Below, in pieces: positions 1,473 to 9,416 of a DNA stretch of 64,000 nt. Origin of the DNA: Balneolaceae bacterium. GTDB taxonomy: Bacteria > Bacteroidota > Rhodothermia > Balneolales > Balneolaceae. Location of the stretch: contig JAFIFB010000110.1 in the NCBI GenBank assembly GCA_020832285.1, forward strand, positions 1 through 64,000, in the 5' to 3' direction. Made by a program: the position numbers and the translations under genes. Numbering within the stretch: position 1 is the stretch's first letter; each line of letters begins with the position of its first letter. The notes under the pieces are model-generated. The model searched no databases. It was given only the letters and a program-made list of their open reading frames with translations, and was not told where the DNA came from.

Positions 1473-2135
1473 TCAGCTTCTTCCAAATAATCTTCGAAAT
1501 GGGTCGAAAATACGGTCTAATCGTTTCAAAAAAGAGATTGTACGTGTAAACCGCGGATGTCGAGTGGGTGAGGCCATGATAAGACGAGAGAGTACGGCAG
1601 CCTGGTCGTCAAGGGCTTTTCGAAGAATATTTTGTTCGATTTGATTGGCCGCCCTTGTTAATGCAATTGCGAACGACCACGCATGCTCCCTTGCTTTGGG
1701 AATACTGAAGTTGGTGATGTCGTCACTGATGAAACCGGTTTTGCGATCCAGTCTCTTCAGGATGGGGGCATATTTCTGCGAAACCTCTTTTTTGAGTGCA
1801 TCGGTGGACTCTTCTAAAACATTGTTGATAATGCAATGGTCAGCGTATTTATCCGCTCGGTCCGGATCGATTTTTACATCATACAGAGCAATAGCCAGGT
1901 CGTGATTGATGTGAGCATTGATGCCCAGCAGCAGATGCTGAGTGATCAGTGCTTCTTTTTTCCGGGCAGAGTCGAAGGAAAAGTGCCAGGATTTAGGAAC
2001 AGGGTTTCCGTTTGATGTTTCATCATTCAGAACCGCTTCGCGATAGAGGTTGCCGAAGCGGACCAGGTAGGCCTGTGTCCAGCTTTTGTCATGAAACGTG
2101 TCTTCTGAAAAGCGGCTGCCATCGGGTTTATCTTT
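1473..2135 (-). pseudogene. DUF5995-family protein, 5'-truncated or without a normal start
   Basis: Reading the minus strand gives a 220-codon open frame ending in TGA at 1473-1475. It clearly encodes the DUF5995 family: the hallmark ITQHLLLGINAHINHDLAIA is present, followed by the usual helical run through KYAPILKRLDRK and IPKAREHAWSFA. The frame is closed upstream by TGA (2136-2138), and there is no in-frame ATG, GTG or TTG in the first half. The family normally has some 40 more N-terminal residues. The open frame begins within the last codons of lgt, overlapping its stop by a few bases, as if a deletion joined the lgt 3' end to a DUF5995 gene lacking its head. A frameshift or non-standard start are alternatives. 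The biochemical role of the family is not known to me. Confidence 0.7.
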
Positions 2136-3153
2136 TCATTTTAGCGCCTTCGCGCGACCAGTTTACTTTTTTCCAGAGCAGCCATACGCCGATCAGTACA
2201 AATGGCACGCTGAGGAGCTGTCCCATATCCAGGGTAGCTCCAATCAAAAAGTCGGCCTGTGTTTCTTTGGTGAACTCAATGAGAAATCGTCCGGTAAAAA
2301 GCATTACCAAAAAGATGCCGAACTGTGATCCTTCGGGAGGTTTACTGTTGTATTTGTAGTAGATCCAGCCGAGTACTGCAAGTACAAGAATACATAGTAC
2401 AGCTTCGTAAAGCATGGATGGGTGGCGGGGCATCATGTCTACATTGGCAAAAACAATGGCCCAGGATACATCGGTGGGCATTCCCAATATTTCGGAGTTA
2501 AAAAAGTTTCCAAACCGTATAAACATCCCGCCGATGGCCACACCGGGGACCACGCGATCGGCCACCCACATAAAGGTGGTGTTGGGTGTTCGTTTGGCGT
2601 ACAGATACATCGCGATGATAATTCCGATAGCGGCACCGTGGCTTGCCAGTCCGCCGGTCCAGACCTGGGGAATGAGATGAATATTCCGGAGATAAAATTC
2701 CGCTTCGTAGAAAAATACATGCCCCAGCCGTGCTCCGATAATCGTGGCAACGAGTACATAAATCAGCAAACGGTCGAGCTCTTCCTGCGACCGGCCGGCG
2801 TCTTTAAACTCTTTGAACCCGATCAGGTAACCGAAAATAAATGCAGAAGCAAACATAAGTCCGTACCAGCGGGGTTCTATCGGACCGATTGAAGAAATTG
2901 AAGGAGAATCAATAAAAAGAAACGGAAGCTGCCCGATTATAATGGAGCCGAGAATGACTCCCCAAAATTGCCAGGCGGGAGGCTCAGCGGCATTTTTGGA
3001 TTTTGGGTCAGGTTTAATTTTTTGATATCCGAAGTAGATGAGTACCGCTGCAAGCAGCAATCCCCAAATGGAAACCTGAAATGGCAGGTTCAATTCCGGT
3101 ATTGAAAACATTACAGGGTCTGTTTCCCAGACAAAATAATTACTTGAATCCAT
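2128..3153 (-). CDS. lgt: Prolipoprotein diacylglyceryl transferase
   Basis: An integral inner-membrane enzyme that moves diacylglycerol from phosphatidylglycerol to the lipobox cysteine of prolipoproteins, the first step of lipoprotein maturation. The 341-residue sequence shows about seven hydrophobic segments. Conserved family blocks are GARLGHVFFYE (140-150), SHGAAIG (171-177) and the Lgt signature RFGNFFNSEILG (213-224). It is somewhat longer than enterobacterial Lgt because of an extra N-terminal membrane segment and a charged loop (residues 44-60). Several lipoproteins in this window would be its substrates. Its 3' end overlaps the start of the truncated DUF5995 frame. Confidence 0.95.
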   Translation of the reverse strand: MDSSNYFVWETDPVMFSIPELNLPFQVSIWGLLLAAVLIYFGYQKIKPDPKSKNAAEPPAWQFWGVILGSIIIGQLPFLFIDSPSISSIGPIEPRWYGLMFASAFIFGYLIGFKEFKDAGRSQEELDRLLIYVLVATIIGARLGHVFFYEAEFYLRNIHLIPQVWTGGLASHGAAIGIIIAMYLYAKRTPNTTFMWVADRVVPGVAIGGMFIRFGNFFNSEILGMPTDVSWAIVFANVDMMPRHPSMLYEAVLCILVLAVLGWIYYKYNSKPPEGSQFGIFLVMLFTGRFLIEFTKETQADFLIGATLDMGQLLSVPFVLIGVWLLWKKVNWSREGAKMKR

Positions 3154-3341: not shown

Positions 3342-5171
3342 TTATTTGTCAGACTCACCTTTACCAGAGCTGCTTTTGCCAGAGTTTGAGCCTCCATTAT
3401 TATTTTTAACTATGTAAGTATGCTCTGGCATACCGTAAGTTAATTTTGTTTTCTTAATGGGTTTAGGGGCTACAGGTTCGTCATCTGGTGGTGGAGGTGT
3501 GGCTGAAGCAGCTTTTGCTGCGCCTCCCTGGGGAGATGTTGGAGCAGGAGTGAACAAATATTTTGCGAGGAAGTAGAGTCCACCGGCAGTGAGAGCGATA
3601 ATGGCCAGGATAAACCACCAGGCGCCTCCTGTTTCGGTTTCAGCTTCAGCTTCATCATACTCCGGGTCCGGTAATGGTTCTTCGGGTACATCATCAGGAA
3701 CGAGTTCTTCATCATCGGGTTCATCCGCTGCTACAGGAGGTTCTTCTTCCCGGATCGGAACTTCAGGTTCAGGTACTTCTTCTTCATCCGGGTCTGCAGG
3801 TTCCTCGGTGACAGTAAGATCTTCGGGGTCTGTTTCCGGTTCAATATCTTTAATTCCCTGGAGTTCAGGCTGCATTCTGGCTGCATCATCCGGTTCCGGA
3901 ACGTCTCTTTCATCAATGTGCTCTTCAACTTCTTCACGAGGCTCTTCCTCACGGATAATTACTTCGCCAACATCTTGTTCGGCTTGCTCAATAGTCTCCT
4001 GCATTTGCTGCTGGAGGTCTTCAATTCGTGCCTGGAGCTCTTCAACAAGCCCGGTATAATACTCTTCCTGGGTTTGTTTGGTTTCCTCTGCTTCGGCAAG
4101 TTGTTGTTCAACGGCTCTGAGCTCTGCCGTTAAAGTTTCCATTTGAGTTTCATTATACTCCGAGCGCTCTCTTTCCTGGGCAATCGTGTGCTCAAGTGAA
4201 TCGATACGACTCTGAAACTCATTGATGGTATCTGCATAGTAATCAGCAAACGCTTCCTGGGCTTCCTGTTCTGTCATCAGATTGGCCTGAAGAGAGTCGA
4301 TGAGGCCTCTGAGCGCTTCAATCTCCTCGCGGTAAATTGCTTCCTGCCGGGCAATAAGCTCTTCTTCAAGTTCGCGGAATAAATCACGGTCTCCAAGCGC
4401 TGGATAAGCCGGGGTACGTGCAGCCGAAGGCCAGTCTGCATCGCGGCTGCCAGAGCCAAATTTAAACTGAATACCAACTGTAATGGCACTCCATGAACTT
4501 GATGTTTGAGCCGACCCGCCCAGATTGAGCAGTTCTCCTAAAAAATTTCCATCAACAATATCACGGCTGGATGATGTGTATTCGTACTGAGCGAATGAAT
4601 CGATACGCTGGCCAAGATTGAAGCGGAGACCACCACCAAATGTTGTGAAAAACGTGGTGGAAGGATGGTCACTTGCACTGACTGCAGATTGGGTAACTTC
4701 CGGGTTGCTTGAATTGACGGTGACGCTGTTGAACATCAGGCCAGTTCCGAAACTTCCGTAAATATTGAAACTCCGGGGATTTACTCCTAATACACGCAAA
4801 AGGCTGAGCTGCGTGGTTATTGAGGTAGTCAGGTAATTATTGTCTAAAGAGAGGTCGTCATTGAAAGCATCGCTCAAAATTGTAAAACGCCCGTAAACTA
4901 CATTCGACTGCAAAGCAATTTCGGGAGAGGCAACATATCGGATATTAAACCCAAGATTATTGTTATACTGTTCCTGAAATTCAAAATTGGCATTCACACC
5001 GGACTGAAAGGCAGAGCCAACACTCATATGGCCTTTCGTAAGTGTACCCATCACACCGATACTTAACCGATTGGGACGCTCATCGAAATCCTGATCCTGA
5101 GCCAAAACAACCCCGGACAGTAGAAGAAAAGAAATAAATAATAGAGAGAATTTTTTCCCCAAAAACATCAT
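3342..5171 (-). CDS. Outer-membrane beta-barrel-like protein with coiled coil, acidic linker and C-terminal TM helix
   Basis: A 609-residue protein with unusual architecture. Residues 1-25 are a signal peptide (cut after VVLAQ). Residues about 30-245 look like an OmpA/OprF-type eight-stranded barrel, with alternating hydrophobic strands, GVMGTLTKGHMSVG and a terminal WSAITVGIQFKFGSG strand. Residues about 265-400 form a long charged coiled coil (EEELIARQEAIYREEIEALR and similar). Residues about 400-515 are an acidic Pro/Glu/Asp linker. A strong hydrophobic helix (WWFILAIIALTAGGLYFLA) follows at about 518-540, then a Pro/Ala stretch and a Gly/Ser/Lys-rich tail. A barrel and an alpha-helical TM segment in one chain is topologically odd: it could bridge outer and inner membranes, or the N-terminal domain may not be an integral barrel. 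No family name is recognised for the whole chain. Confidence 0.7.
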   Translation of the reverse strand: MMFLGKKFSLLFISFLLLSGVVLAQDQDFDERPNRLSIGVMGTLTKGHMSVGSAFQSGVNANFEFQEQYNNNLGFNIRYVASPEIALQSNVVYGRFTILSDAFNDDLSLDNNYLTTSITTQLSLLRVLGVNPRSFNIYGSFGTGLMFNSVTVNSSNPEVTQSAVSASDHPSTTFFTTFGGGLRFNLGQRIDSFAQYEYTSSSRDIVDGNFLGELLNLGGSAQTSSSWSAITVGIQFKFGSGSRDADWPSAARTPAYPALGDRDLFRELEEELIARQEAIYREEIEALRGLIDSLQANLMTEQEAQEAFADYYADTINEFQSRIDSLEHTIAQERERSEYNETQMETLTAELRAVEQQLAEAEETKQTQEEYYTGLVEELQARIEDLQQQMQETIEQAEQDVGEVIIREEEPREEVEEHIDERDVPEPDDAARMQPELQGIKDIEPETDPEDLTVTEEPADPDEEEVPEPEVPIREEEPPVAADEPDDEELVPDDVPEEPLPDPEYDEAEAETETGGAWWFILAIIALTAGGLYFLAKYLFTPAPTSPQGGAAKAASATPPPPDDEPVAPKPIKKTKLTYGMPEHTYIVKNNNGGSNSGKSSSGKGESDK

Positions 5172-6341
5172 TAAAGAGCAATTAAGAGTAAAAAGAAGAA
5201 AGCAATCAAAGATTTAAACTGAATGAAGAATCCGTTTGTACGAAATTCTGCGGATATTTTGACCGGTCTGTAATCTATTCAATTTAAAATATATTATTTC
5301 TTTTTTTGGCTTTCTTTGTACAAGTTGTATCTGATACGTATCTAACCGGTATTATAAAAATTTGCTTGAAAGTGGTTTGAACGTTTTACAACCGGGCTGA
5401 ACAAAACATTAGAAATTCTTCAAAAAAGCTATAGTGCTTAGAAAATACAATCAAAATGGGTTGTATTAAAAAACTTTTAAAGAATTTGTCAGCCCGAAAA
5501 ATATCAATTCAGTTAAGACTGAATGATATAAAATATTACATGTTGTGAATGAACTATAAAAAGCTAATCAATAAAAAAATGACCCGGATTTCTCGTTTAT
5601 GTAATATCTAAAATCAAAATCAGATTTGCTAATAAGAATTTGAAGTGCTCAGAATTGTTTAAAAATGCTCGTAAGTTTCAAAAGTTTCAGGTATGTGATT
5701 AGAATTTTTTTGAAAAATGGCAGCAAATGGCTGGTTCATCCCATTTAAATTTATGCGGTTAATTCAAGAATTCCGGGTTGTCATTGAAAGTTTTCCAGTA
5801 TGGGAAAGAATATAGATGAAAACAAAACCTGCGGCATGATTTCTGAAAAGTATCAGTTTGAAATCAGAGGTGTTGCATGTGGTGTCATCAGTAGCCCCTA
5901 ATCTTGCCCAAAAAGCCTGCTCTTCGAAGTTTTCCTGACCCTCGAAGTATCAACGTAGTGGGTAACGTAGTAGAGCGAGCAGCATTATTTCAGAAGTGAC
6001 AGGCTCTATAATCCCCTCATCGAGAGGGGAAAGGCGTAAACGAAACGGCGAAGCCGGGTGAGTTTAGCGAGGGGTGTGTTCGATGGCTTTGATCGTGAAC
6101 CGTAGACGTTTCAGGTTCCTTGCCCACGCAAACACACCCTCCGAAGGGTCGGAGTGCCGCAAAAGCCGTCACCTGTGCTTTTCGAAAGGCTCGCTTCGCG
6201 ATCTTACTCAAATCTGTCCCCTCTCAAGAAGGGATTTACGGGTGTGTTTGTAAACGCAAAAATCGTTGTTTAAAGCCCAAATATACACTTTTTGTAAAAC
6301 TGACAACCGTAGCCATTCTGATTAGTGCCGGATTAATATCA
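5172..6341. other. Long AT-rich intergenic region
   Basis: About 1.17 kb without a convincing gene. The first 0.6 kb is strongly AT-rich with stops in all frames. A 34-codon frame from ATG at 5800 lacks a ribosome-binding site and recognisable content. The right part, about 6010-6260, is a more GC-rich dispersed-repeat-like block described separately. The upstream stretch next to the barrel protein start (5172-5350) probably holds its promoter, but I cannot place it. Confidence 0.5.
6013..6256. repeat. Dispersed repeat-like block with imperfect terminal inverted repeats
   Basis: The left end reads CCCTCATCGAGAGGGGAAAG. The reverse complement of the right end (about 6216-6235) reads CCCTTCTTGAGAGGGGACAG, about 14 of 20 matching. 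Each end is followed by a GTAAACG/TTTACGGGTGTGTTTG-type string, and GTGTGTT appears on both sides of the centre. Base composition differs sharply from the AT-rich flanks. This fits a non-coding mobile repeat (MITE-like) or a decayed element. No protein frame is credible. Confidence 0.45.
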
Positions 6342-9300
6342 TCAGTTAAATAACCTTCTGAGCAGATCTCTGGCACCATCTTCAACATAATCGCGGACAA
6401 TCCGGTCGACGGTTTCGGTATCGGGCCGGATTTGAGGGTTGGCTGTTGTTCCTGTTATGCGGACCGGCACGGCCATCCGCCCATCATCTAATTGAAGTGC
6501 ATCTGCAGCCCGGCTCGATATAACCGTTGCAATACCCCGTTTGAACTGTTCCGGAAGCAGCATGGTAGCCCTGTAGTTGATCTGGTCAGATACCATGTTC
6601 AGTGTACCCTCAAGTTCAAATCCAAGGTTGCCGCTGGTGAGCCGGAAATTGCGCAGGGTCATCACCGTGTCCTGAATACTGAAACTGGCGTTCCATTCAT
6701 CCAAAACGAGTGACTCGAACTCACTGGCATTCAGGAACCGGGAAACTCCCACCTGGATGGGGTGGTTTCTCATGCGGGCGGTGGTCATTCCAAATGTACC
6801 GCTGGCATTGGCCGTAGAAATGTTGGGTTCAAGATCAGGGTTTAGTTGCGAGGTGTAATTGATTTCGGAACTGAAGGAACCGCTTATGTATTGGTGCAGT
6901 GTACTGCCCTGTCCCAAAAAGTTGGTGTCCCGGAAAAAAGCCTGCGCCTGAAGGCCATCAAGATTTCCATTAAAGGTGATGCTGCTGTTGAGCGGGTCGG
7001 GGACATTCCAGACCATCTGTCCGGTGGCGGTGCCATCAAAGAGCCGCGCCCGGGCGTCGTTTATTTGAATAAGTTCGGGTGTAAGGCGGCCCTGGCCTTC
7101 AATGTCGGTGATCGACAAACCGAAGATAGTGAGCCGTTCGATATTTGCCGTAACCGAAGCTGTCAGGTTGGGCAGTTCTATCGGGATGGGCTCGTCGGAT
7201 TCTTCATCCCAGTCAATCATTTCATCCATGTTGAGGTGGCGGCTGCGGTAACTTCCGGTTATGGAAGGTAAATTGGCTGCCGTATTGGTTTCATTGAGGA
7301 AGTTCATGTAATTTCGCAGTGTCCCTTCAAGCTGAATGTCAGACGAGCCGTAATTCATGGTGAATCGGTCAAGATTCATCGTTTGAGGAGTAATGCTCAT
7401 GCGCCCGTTCAACTCTGTGACAGGAAGCGGAATGGAATCTCCGATGGCAGTTACATTGCTCACCTCCATTGATCCGTTCAGGGCAAGCCGCTGAATATCG
7501 TTCACAGGGCCTCTGACATTGAGATTCATGACTGCATCCCCAGTTAGTTCCTGTATCCAGGGTTCAAGGGAGATGTAGTTGGTGATACTTCCAAATACTG
7601 CGTTACCATCGAATGTAAGGTCAACTTCTGGATTATCGCTCAGGTAGTTGATGACCGTTCCTTGCAGGGCCAGGGCATTTTCTCCGCTGTTAAACCGTCC
7701 CTGGCTGATTGCAAGCCGCCGTCCGCTCGCTTCGGCCCGGAACATGATATCTTCAAGAGGAGTATTCATGCTTTGATGGAAAAAGTAACCATCGGTCAGT
7801 TGGATCGTGCTCTGCTGCAGCAGGGTTTCGATCTGATCGGGATCGGGCCGGCCCCGTAGTGCGATTTCAGCAATTAGCTGTCCCCGCATCGATAGGGTGT
7901 CCTCATCTATTGGATAGAAATCTTTGATGGTGGCCAGATCAAAGTTGATGTTGGAGCGCACATCTACGGTTCGCTGATTTTCATCCAGCGGACGTAAAAT
8001 ATCTCCGGCTAACTGAAAGCGGTTATTAGCAGCGGTAAATCCCGATTCATCGATGCGAATGAGATCCTGGTTGGCATCAATCCGCGCGTTGATCTGTTCG
8101 ATGGGTCGGGGTACATCGGCATATTTCAGAAGGCCGTTTGTGAGGTGAAACCTTCCGCTGAAGGTGGCTTCTTCAGGTTGATCGAGGCGTCCTGTTGCAG
8201 TAGCTGTGGTTTTGAGCATTCCGGCGAGATCCTCTATACCGAGTTCATCAATCGGGTAGAAACTGCTGACAGTGGCCAGGTTGATATCTCCGTCAAGGTC
8301 CAGCGAAAAGATACCGTCATCATCCAGCGGGCGTTCGATGGTTCCCGAACCGGTAACGCTGTTTACACCTGCTCTCGCCCGAAAATCGTTGATGGTAGCC
8401 AGTTCGTTGTTGAAGAGAATCTGAAAATGGATATCTTCGATCGCTTCGGGAAGATCAGGGTTTTGTAAAAAACCGTCAGTTACTTCAATTACCAGATCAA
8501 AACGGGGCAGGGTTCCTTCAGCGAAAGTGCCGTCAACAGAGCCTTCAAACACAAGGCTGCCCCGTGTTACGAGTCCGGTGAGATATTCTTCGAAATTGGG
8601 TGGAGCAAGCCGGAGCAGTTCCCCGAAATTTTCGGATGTGGAGGCAAACTGAAGCGATACGGCAGGTTCCTCACTGCTCCAGTTGGAAAAGGAGCCCGTC
8701 AGATTCAAAGCCAGTCCGCGGATAGAAAAAGTTCCTTCAGTGAAATTCAATATTTCATTTTCAAGGTCGAGGGTGGAGATCTGATTCAGGCTGAGTGACA
8801 GATTACTGATGTACTGTGTTCCGTCCATCATCACATTGAGTGAACCGAGATCTGCATTTACCCGGCTTTCGATCAGATCGGCAAAAAAGAGAGAGATGTC
8901 GGCATCCAGATCTTCCATTGATATGGTGGTGTTGGTGGTTTCATCGCGGTAGAAGGCGGAACCATCTGTAAGTTTGAAACCGGGAATAGAGATTGTATAT
9001 GAACTCTCTTCAGCCGGTTCCTCTTCAGTTTCGAGTAGAAAGTCGATGTTGGTGGTAGAATCGGCAAATACCGTGTAATAGACAACAGGCCGGGTGATCG
9101 AAAGTCGTGAAATGGAGATCTCATCTCTGAACAGAGGATAGAGTTCGAGTGAGAGAAGAAGCTCGTCGATGGAAGCAACAGGCTCACCCTGGGGATCGGG
9201 CACGAGAACACCGTCTAAATCAAGTCCGAAACGTGGAAAAGTTTTAAAAAAGGTGAGGGACATCCGATCGACTTGCACTTCACTTCCTACCGCTTGCTGA

Positions 9301-9416
9301 ACATGCGGGAGAATCATGTTTTTCAGTCTCTCATCGGTCAGATAGAGGTTTAAGCCAATTAAAGCCACAATAAACAGTACAAATAGAGCGGCAACAATTT
9401 TTAAAAATAATTTCAT
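6342..9416 (-). CDS. AsmA-family inner-membrane-anchored protein
   Basis: A 1,024-residue protein with a single N-terminal membrane anchor (MKLFLKIVAALFVLFIVALIGLNLYLTD, residues 1-28) and a very long beta-rich periplasmic part. The start matches AsmA-family proteins: anchor, then DERLKNMILPHVQQAVGSEV, then VDRMSLTFFKTFPRFGLDLD. The C-terminal third keeps the AsmA-C-like pattern (SGSFSSEINYTSQL, FGMTTARMRNHPIQVGVSRFL, LEGTLNMVSDQINYRATMLL). AsmA/TamB-like proteins form elongated grooves that carry lipids between inner and outer membrane; that role is inferred from family. It is flanked by non-coding DNA on both sides, so it is probably transcribed alone. Confidence 0.85.
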   Translation of the reverse strand: MKLFLKIVAALFVLFIVALIGLNLYLTDERLKNMILPHVQQAVGSEVQVDRMSLTFFKTFPRFGLDLDGVLVPDPQGEPVASIDELLLSLELYPLFRDEISISRLSITRPVVYYTVFADSTTNIDFLLETEEEPAEESSYTISIPGFKLTDGSAFYRDETTNTTISMEDLDADISLFFADLIESRVNADLGSLNVMMDGTQYISNLSLSLNQISTLDLENEILNFTEGTFSIRGLALNLTGSFSNWSSEEPAVSLQFASTSENFGELLRLAPPNFEEYLTGLVTRGSLVFEGSVDGTFAEGTLPRFDLVIEVTDGFLQNPDLPEAIEDIHFQILFNNELATINDFRARAGVNSVTGSGTIERPLDDDGIFSLDLDGDINLATVSSFYPIDELGIEDLAGMLKTTATATGRLDQPEEATFSGRFHLTNGLLKYADVPRPIEQINARIDANQDLIRIDESGFTAANNRFQLAGDILRPLDENQRTVDVRSNINFDLATIKDFYPIDEDTLSMRGQLIAEIALRGRPDPDQIETLLQQSTIQLTDGYFFHQSMNTPLEDIMFRAEASGRRLAISQGRFNSGENALALQGTVINYLSDNPEVDLTFDGNAVFGSITNYISLEPWIQELTGDAVMNLNVRGPVNDIQRLALNGSMEVSNVTAIGDSIPLPVTELNGRMSITPQTMNLDRFTMNYGSSDIQLEGTLRNYMNFLNETNTAANLPSITGSYRSRHLNMDEMIDWDEESDEPIPIELPNLTASVTANIERLTIFGLSITDIEGQGRLTPELIQINDARARLFDGTATGQMVWNVPDPLNSSITFNGNLDGLQAQAFFRDTNFLGQGSTLHQYISGSFSSEINYTSQLNPDLEPNISTANASGTFGMTTARMRNHPIQVGVSRFLNASEFESLVLDEWNASFSIQDTVMTLRNFRLTSGNLGFELEGTLNMVSDQINYRATMLLPEQFKRGIATVISSRAADALQLDDGRMAVPVRITGTTANPQIRPDTETVDRIVRDYVEDGARDLLRRLFN

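Follow-up and report, generated by a model that had tools for sequence, protein, structure and literature searches.

A predicted outer-to-inner-membrane tether in Balneolaceae whose putative cytoplasmic tail is co-inherited with a circularly permuted actin

We analysed a 64,000-nucleotide stretch of a Balneolaceae bacterium genome (assembly GCA_020832285.1, contig JAFIFB010000110.1, positions 1 to 64,000), called the window below. Its own genome is designated G000, and the genomes of its relatives carry handles of the same form. Between lgt and an AsmA/YhdP-like gene lies a gene for a 609-residue protein, which we call the tether, with the following features.

2128..3153, minus strand: lgt (prolipoprotein diacylglyceryl transferase), downstream neighbour (PF01790, 2.8e-71)
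3342..5171, minus strand: whole tether gene, 609 aa plus stop, ATG start (open reading frame list, orthologs)
5100..5171, minus strand: signal peptide, residues 1-24, without a lipobox Cys (by eye, no signal-peptide program)
4431..5099, minus strand: predicted eight-stranded OmpA-type barrel, residues 25-247 (AlphaFold2, Foldseek, paralogs)
3960..4388, minus strand: predicted long coiled-coil helix, residues 262-404 (AlphaFold2, periodicity)
3621..3959, minus strand: acidic, Pro-containing disordered linker, residues 405-517 (AlphaFold2, composition)
3555..3620, minus strand: C-terminal transmembrane (TM) helix, residues 518-539, predicted to lie N-out/C-in in the inner membrane (hydropathy, AlphaFold2, orthologs)
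3345..3554, minus strand: predicted cytoplasmic tail, residues 540-609, 70 residues (orthologs, selection)
3399..3449, minus strand: tail segment with the PEH[S/T] motif (TKLTYGMPEHTYIVKNN, residues 575-591; motif common to all five tailed tethers, the window's included)
6342..9416, minus strand: AsmA/YhdP-like gene, 1024 aa, upstream neighbour

The open reading frame runs exactly from 3342 to 5171. Domain sizes of about 215, 135, 115 and 23 residues had been given in the first-pass annotation, and they fit the AlphaFold2 layout; the signal peptide that it had noted was seen as well. Full-chain structure prediction, proposed at that stage as a check, returned eight strands (residues 35-238), a 143-residue helix (262-404), a disordered linker (405-517), a short helix (518-539) and a disordered tail. 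The underlying alignment held four sequences, the window protein and three relatives, and overall confidence was low (mean pLDDT 57, pTM 0.33); the long helix was modelled best (pLDDT mostly 75-93), and the TM helix scored 52-65. When the model was compared with the PDB using Foldseek, OmpA transmembrane domains ranked at the top (9fzc_A, E 2.5e-9, 13% identity, TM-score 0.67 over the target; 9a2m and 9fzd were also among the top matches), and lower matches included NspA, Ail, OprF, OmpW and OmpX. The Pfam OmpA_membrane profile scored 15.1 bits, under its cut-off of 21. A soluble beta-sandwich would have refuted the initial description of the N-terminus as a barrel-like, outer-membrane domain; it was ruled out because the Foldseek matches were OmpA barrels. 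The last barrel strand, TVGIQFKF, resembles an OMP beta-signal, and both the barrel sequence and this internal strand were kept among orthologs. We regard the predicted barrel fold as computationally demonstrated, at moderate model confidence. The heptad-like periodicity of the coil was equalled by one in 2000 shuffles, and the 113-residue linker is 43% D+E with six K+R.

The architecture had been recommended for a search in other Balneolota, and it recurs within a single Balneolaceae genus: searching with a tether alignment, we found the protein in eight of 28 genus genomes and in none of 64 other genomes of the family. Five copies are complete (G000, G020, G016, G005 and G012), those of G017 and G011 are C-terminal pieces at contig ends, and that of G018 is a bare barrel of 258 aa (L129 10001-10777), with lgt about 106 bp further on. 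A scan of genome contigs found only three loci. The named records, from two Balneolaceae MAGs and from Rhodohalobacter sulfatireducens WB101 (locus L128, where actin and tether adjoin), assign the group to Balneolaceae. The helix near the C-terminus that had looked convincing at first sight (residues 518-539; mean Kyte-Doolittle hydropathy 1.94 in the window protein) has a counterpart in all seven orthologs with a C-terminus in the data (G000, G017, G020, G011, G016, G005 and G012), where the best 19-residue means were 1.94-2.44 and the surrounding linker was barely alignable. Barrel paralogs with other ends had no TM helix (0/5; no hydropathy window above 1.28 past residue 240). Across the seven orthologs there were 33-53 acidic residues in the 120 positions before the helix, and the net charge of up to 15 residues after it was -1 to +4, so that by the positive-inside rule the helix should run N-out/C-in and leave the tail in the cytoplasm.

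Selection on this region was estimated between G000 and its nearest relative, G017. The dN/dS was 0.07 over 280 codons and 0.06 over the 92 codons of TM helix plus tail, indicating purifying selection, with no non-synonymous change in the 23 TM codons; for the tail it was 0.08 over 69 codons, which is strong purifying selection. A layout that recurs in orthologs at such low dN/dS reflects more than chance. We consider the predicted topology of the tether well supported; the conservation of the TM helix, the domain order and the selection on the tail were each established computationally.

Two paralogs with the same barrel occur in the window genome, at 46% and 33% identity, one (L002) ending in OmpA_C (PF00691, 4.1e-25, 88.4 bits) and the other (L003) in SPOR (PF05036, 4.7e-9, 36.9 bits). 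These are endings found in outer-membrane proteins, which supports reading the tether's own barrel as an outer-membrane one, as originally described. In relatives from G006, G022 and G419 the barrel is followed by an acidic linker and then by an end that looks SPOR-like from its sequence, with Pfam confirmation for the G419 protein only. The tether itself had no match to OmpA_C (PF00691) up to E 1 and no Pfam match to SPOR (PF05036), and an ordinary OmpA_C or SPOR protein was thereby ruled out. Taken together, paralogs and relatives with OmpA_C or SPOR ends point to a barrel family with exchangeable anchors; by its domain content, the tether is a member in which a TM helix takes the place of the peptidoglycan anchor.

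In G016 and G020, the space between the tether and the AsmA/YhdP-like gene is occupied by a gene for an actin-like protein of 337 aa, immediately upstream of the tether. The phosphate-1 motif, approximately GxDxGNxxT, fell within the C-terminal 35 residues of all 26 copies of this protein and near the N-terminus of none. The ALP_N profile matched with 34.5 bits in P0003 (cut-off 26.3), 37.0 in G006 and 36.0 in G033, MreB-like_C stayed below its cut-off, and neither the G000 nor the G020 copy matched ALP_N. Moving the motif piece to the front raised ALP_N from 37.0 to 45.7 bits in G006 and from 36.0 to 44.1 in G033 and extended the match to profile position 1; with a shuffled piece, G006 scored 36.1. 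Five copies were un-permuted and five shuffled controls prepared; the scan covered three of the former (G000, G006 and G033, but not the G016 and G020 copies) and two of the latter (G000 and G006), leaving G033 without a control. The score rose in two of the three; G000 lacked ALP_N in every version, and all that appeared was a weak match to Volactin (E 0.03). From motif position and profile matches alone, we consider circular permutation of this putative actin computationally demonstrated. A structural model built from two close sequences (pLDDT 36) was not used, and a PDB sequence search returned nothing relevant.

The actin family is patchy: of 394 genomes of the phylum, 22 carried it at E <= 1e-20. 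Outside the genus, a bactofilin gene was adjacent or within two genes at 17 of 20 loci; the three misses belong to one family (f7), and one of them had just 1.5 kb on either side in the data. This recurrent pairing suggests a two-part cytoskeleton. No bactofilin lay nearby at any of six loci within the genus, where the neighbours were the tether (G016, G020), an OmpA_C paralog (G000) or a barrel protein with an Omp85 domain (PF01103; L047 2823-3992 in G006 and L048 7651-8817 in G010, beside the actin in place of the tether). In the G017 fragment no outer-membrane barrel gene was within reach of the actin. Near the G000 actin there is also a PilN-like gene whose product ends in a SPOR domain, together with a gene judged by eye to be secretin-like (L046 2260-6705). 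A plasmid-borne or phage-borne actin was ruled out in so far as a plasmid collection and 50,697 phage records gave no match.

We compared the distribution of the actin with the form of the tether's tail. The actin occurred in seven of 25 genus genomes searched (G000, G006, G010, G011, G016, G017 and G020). Tethers in G000, G017, G020, G011 and G016 have long tails, counted here as 73-158 residues, in which the PEH[S/T] motif occurs once or twice; those of G005 and G012 end in 9-13 residues, and the truncated G018 form lacks everything from coil to tail. Thus all five long-tailed tethers were in actin-positive genomes and all three tail-less or truncated ones in actin-negative genomes (Fisher 1/56, calculated by hand and ignoring relatedness). 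The eight genomes belong to one genus and include several close kin, so the split amounts to about two or three independent transitions. G011 was counted from fragments at different contig ends, a C-terminal piece of the tether and 47 residues of actin; without it the split is 4/4 against 0/3. At 92% completeness and in 470 contigs, the G018 assembly could conceal an actin elsewhere, and none was present at its contiguous AsmA-barrel junction. The PEH motif was retained in an otherwise diverged tail. As a separate observation, similar helices that look amphipathic (FAFFSMAATEVSDFF... / GYIEMTISEISDYL...) close the tails of G020, G011 and G016 (L007, L130 and L009); the window protein has none.

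One transition separates G016, which has actin and tail, from its sister G005, which has neither. Their sisterhood was recovered in a species tree built from lgt+LolA (support 96) and with AsmA (85% identity, support 99). The tether barrels of G016 and G005 were 59% identical, against 82% between G005 and G012 (79% for AsmA in the latter pair). At the DNA level, G016 and G005 aligned at 76-77% on either side of the actin+tether block, right to its borders; within the block the alignment was nearly lost, apart from one 659-base stretch of the barrel at 65%. Because flanks that follow the species tree enclose a divergent block, actin and tailed tether appear to have been exchanged as a unit; on the simplest reading, the pair in G016 looks like a foreign block. 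A second joint change is seen in G018, which is without both the coil-to-tail region and the actin, its relatives G020 and G011 having both. The genes are not always together: the actin of G000 is encoded on a different contig (C27:45080-46084), where it adjoins the OmpA_C paralog and not the tether, and no actin remnant was detected in the window's 1.17 kb tether-AsmA gap (best tblastn E 1.2). In G006 and G010 an actin was present and no tether was found, indicating that the actin does not need the tether. Within these limits, we take the co-inheritance of tail and actin to be demonstrated computationally, by sequence comparison and no other means.

Our preferred interpretation, to which we give roughly even credence, is a single-chain tether from outer to inner membrane whose cytoplasmic tail docks a chromosomal, permuted actin. 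The signal peptide would direct export by Sec. The hydrophobic helix near the C-terminus would serve as a stop-transfer segment, staying embedded in the inner membrane and leaving the tail on the cytoplasmic side, and the N-terminal OmpA-type barrel would pass to BAM and fold in the outer membrane. A coil of about 21 nm (143 residues at 0.15 nm) and the flexible acidic linker could cross the periplasm between them. The tether would have been derived from a barrel family that otherwise holds peptidoglycan through OmpA_C or SPOR, and, in species that carry the circularly permuted actin, docking of this protein by the tail would couple an inner filament to the outer membrane, with a probable role in cell shape or envelope positioning. 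The insertion of one chain in both membranes at once, binding of the tail to actin, actin polymerisation and the cellular role are all inferred, and docking in particular rests on co-inheritance and gene order, without direct evidence of binding. A tether of both membranes had been raised in the first-pass annotation as an unusual possibility; both anchors are now predicted and conserved, and experimental evidence of attachment to both membranes is lacking. Only tentatively would we extend the interpretation to an integrin-like or LINC-like, trans-envelope linker, in which one polypeptide mechanically couples an actin filament to an outer-membrane barrel and the permuted actin forms the cytoskeletal side.

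One alternative is that the protein is a tether and nothing more, which by bridging the membranes would fix the width of the periplasm or stabilise the envelope, with an incidental tail that matches the actin's distribution through shared ancestry or chance. In G005 and G012 the whole chain from barrel to TM helix persists without actin or long tail, which implies that membrane bridging has a use of its own, and the two genes are not neighbours in the window genome. An incidental tail would sit poorly with the strong purifying selection upon it, the kept PEH motif, the apparent exchange of actin and tailed tether as one block in G016 and the absence of both tail and actin from G018, and we consider this account somewhat unlikely. 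Were the tail's partner a bactofilin cytoskeleton instead of actin, the bactofilin genes beside actin at most loci outside the genus, and in nine of ten genus genomes tested, would fit. However, bactofilin also occurs in G005, G012 and G018, so the tail pattern would go unexplained; a correlation of the tail with bactofilin was ruled out on this ground, and we judge such docking decidedly improbable.

Alternatively, the TM helix might keep the chain in the inner membrane, the barrel either never reaching the outer membrane or being released by proteolysis. We have no evidence for simultaneous insertion, and a stop-transfer helix behind a BAM substrate would, we infer, pose a problem of biogenesis; yet the barrel and its internal beta-signal-like strand are conserved in orthologs, and the roughly 256 residues of coil and linker between the anchors are of suitable length, so this outcome appears unlikely. 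That the protein serves membrane fusion or prophage lysis in the manner of a spanin is scarcely credible: it has a beta-barrel and not a lipid anchor, with no Cys in the signal region, its gene is chromosomal and lies between lgt and the AsmA-like gene in the window and in five other species read (L053, L054, L057, L058 and L059), no lysis genes were seen at those loci, and the associated actin was without a match among the phage records. Unimolecular spanins such as T1 gp11 do resemble the preferred single-chain tether in joining an N-terminal outer-membrane anchor to a C-terminal inner-membrane TM helix in one chain, but theirs is a lipid anchor used in phage lysis (PMC6139136), and we do not claim homology.

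Among other known systems, the OmpA/OprF family shares the eight-stranded N-terminal barrel and the anchoring of the outer membrane through a C-terminal extension in the periplasm, and has a true paralog in the same genome; the tether differs in lacking OmpA_C and SPOR, in being anchored by an inner-membrane TM helix and in its predicted cytoplasmic tail. Deinococcus SlpA and SlpA-like connectors of outer membrane and peptidoglycan likewise use an outer-membrane barrel and a long periplasmic coiled coil as an envelope connector, but in SlpA a 30-stranded barrel is C-terminal and the coil and SLH domains on peptidoglycan are N-terminal, so that order, barrel and target all differ (PMC9388160). 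In filamentous cyanobacteria, FcmB is a chromosomal ParM-like actin that a neighbouring partner, FcmC, recruits to the membrane, affecting cell shape; unlike the tether, FcmC carries a ParR-like annotation and not that of an outer-membrane barrel, and the stem 'permut' is absent from the text of that paper (PMC12645912). The NCBIfam FcmB profile gave our actin 15.6 bits against 300, far under the cut-off. ParM/Alp/MreB-type actins resemble ours through the ALP_N and sub-cut-off MreB-like_C matches, but ours carries the first strand, with its phosphate-1 motif, at the C-terminus. The nearest literature also includes BeeR (PMC11929497) and chromosomal ParMs (PMC12270681). The literature searched, which did not cover preprints or most subscription journals, yielded no description of an outer-membrane barrel that carries an inner-membrane helix of its own, or of bactofilin pairing with a permuted actin.

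Known outer-membrane tethers of OmpA type end at peptidoglycan. If one chain does occupy both membranes, it would raise the question of how BAM receives a barrel whose chain is already tied at its far end to the inner membrane, and it would offer a simple handle on periplasm width. Binding of the tail to actin, if true, would provide a direct physical link between an inner cytoskeletal filament and the cell surface. The permuted actin is of interest by itself: the change places the first hairpin, which binds the nucleotide, at the C-terminus.

Two further features of the locus were observed. Positions 5879-6315 of the window, within the tether-AsmA gap and so where G016 and G020 have the actin gene, are a member of a dispersed repeat with 56 further matches genome-wide (E <= 1e-3), the longest at most 94% identical. 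On the other side, a DUF5995 gene (1476-2190, minus strand) is apparently broken, its matching frame having no start and a stop upstream; the near relative G017 has a 287-aa open frame at the equivalent place, and intact copies adjoin lgt in others.
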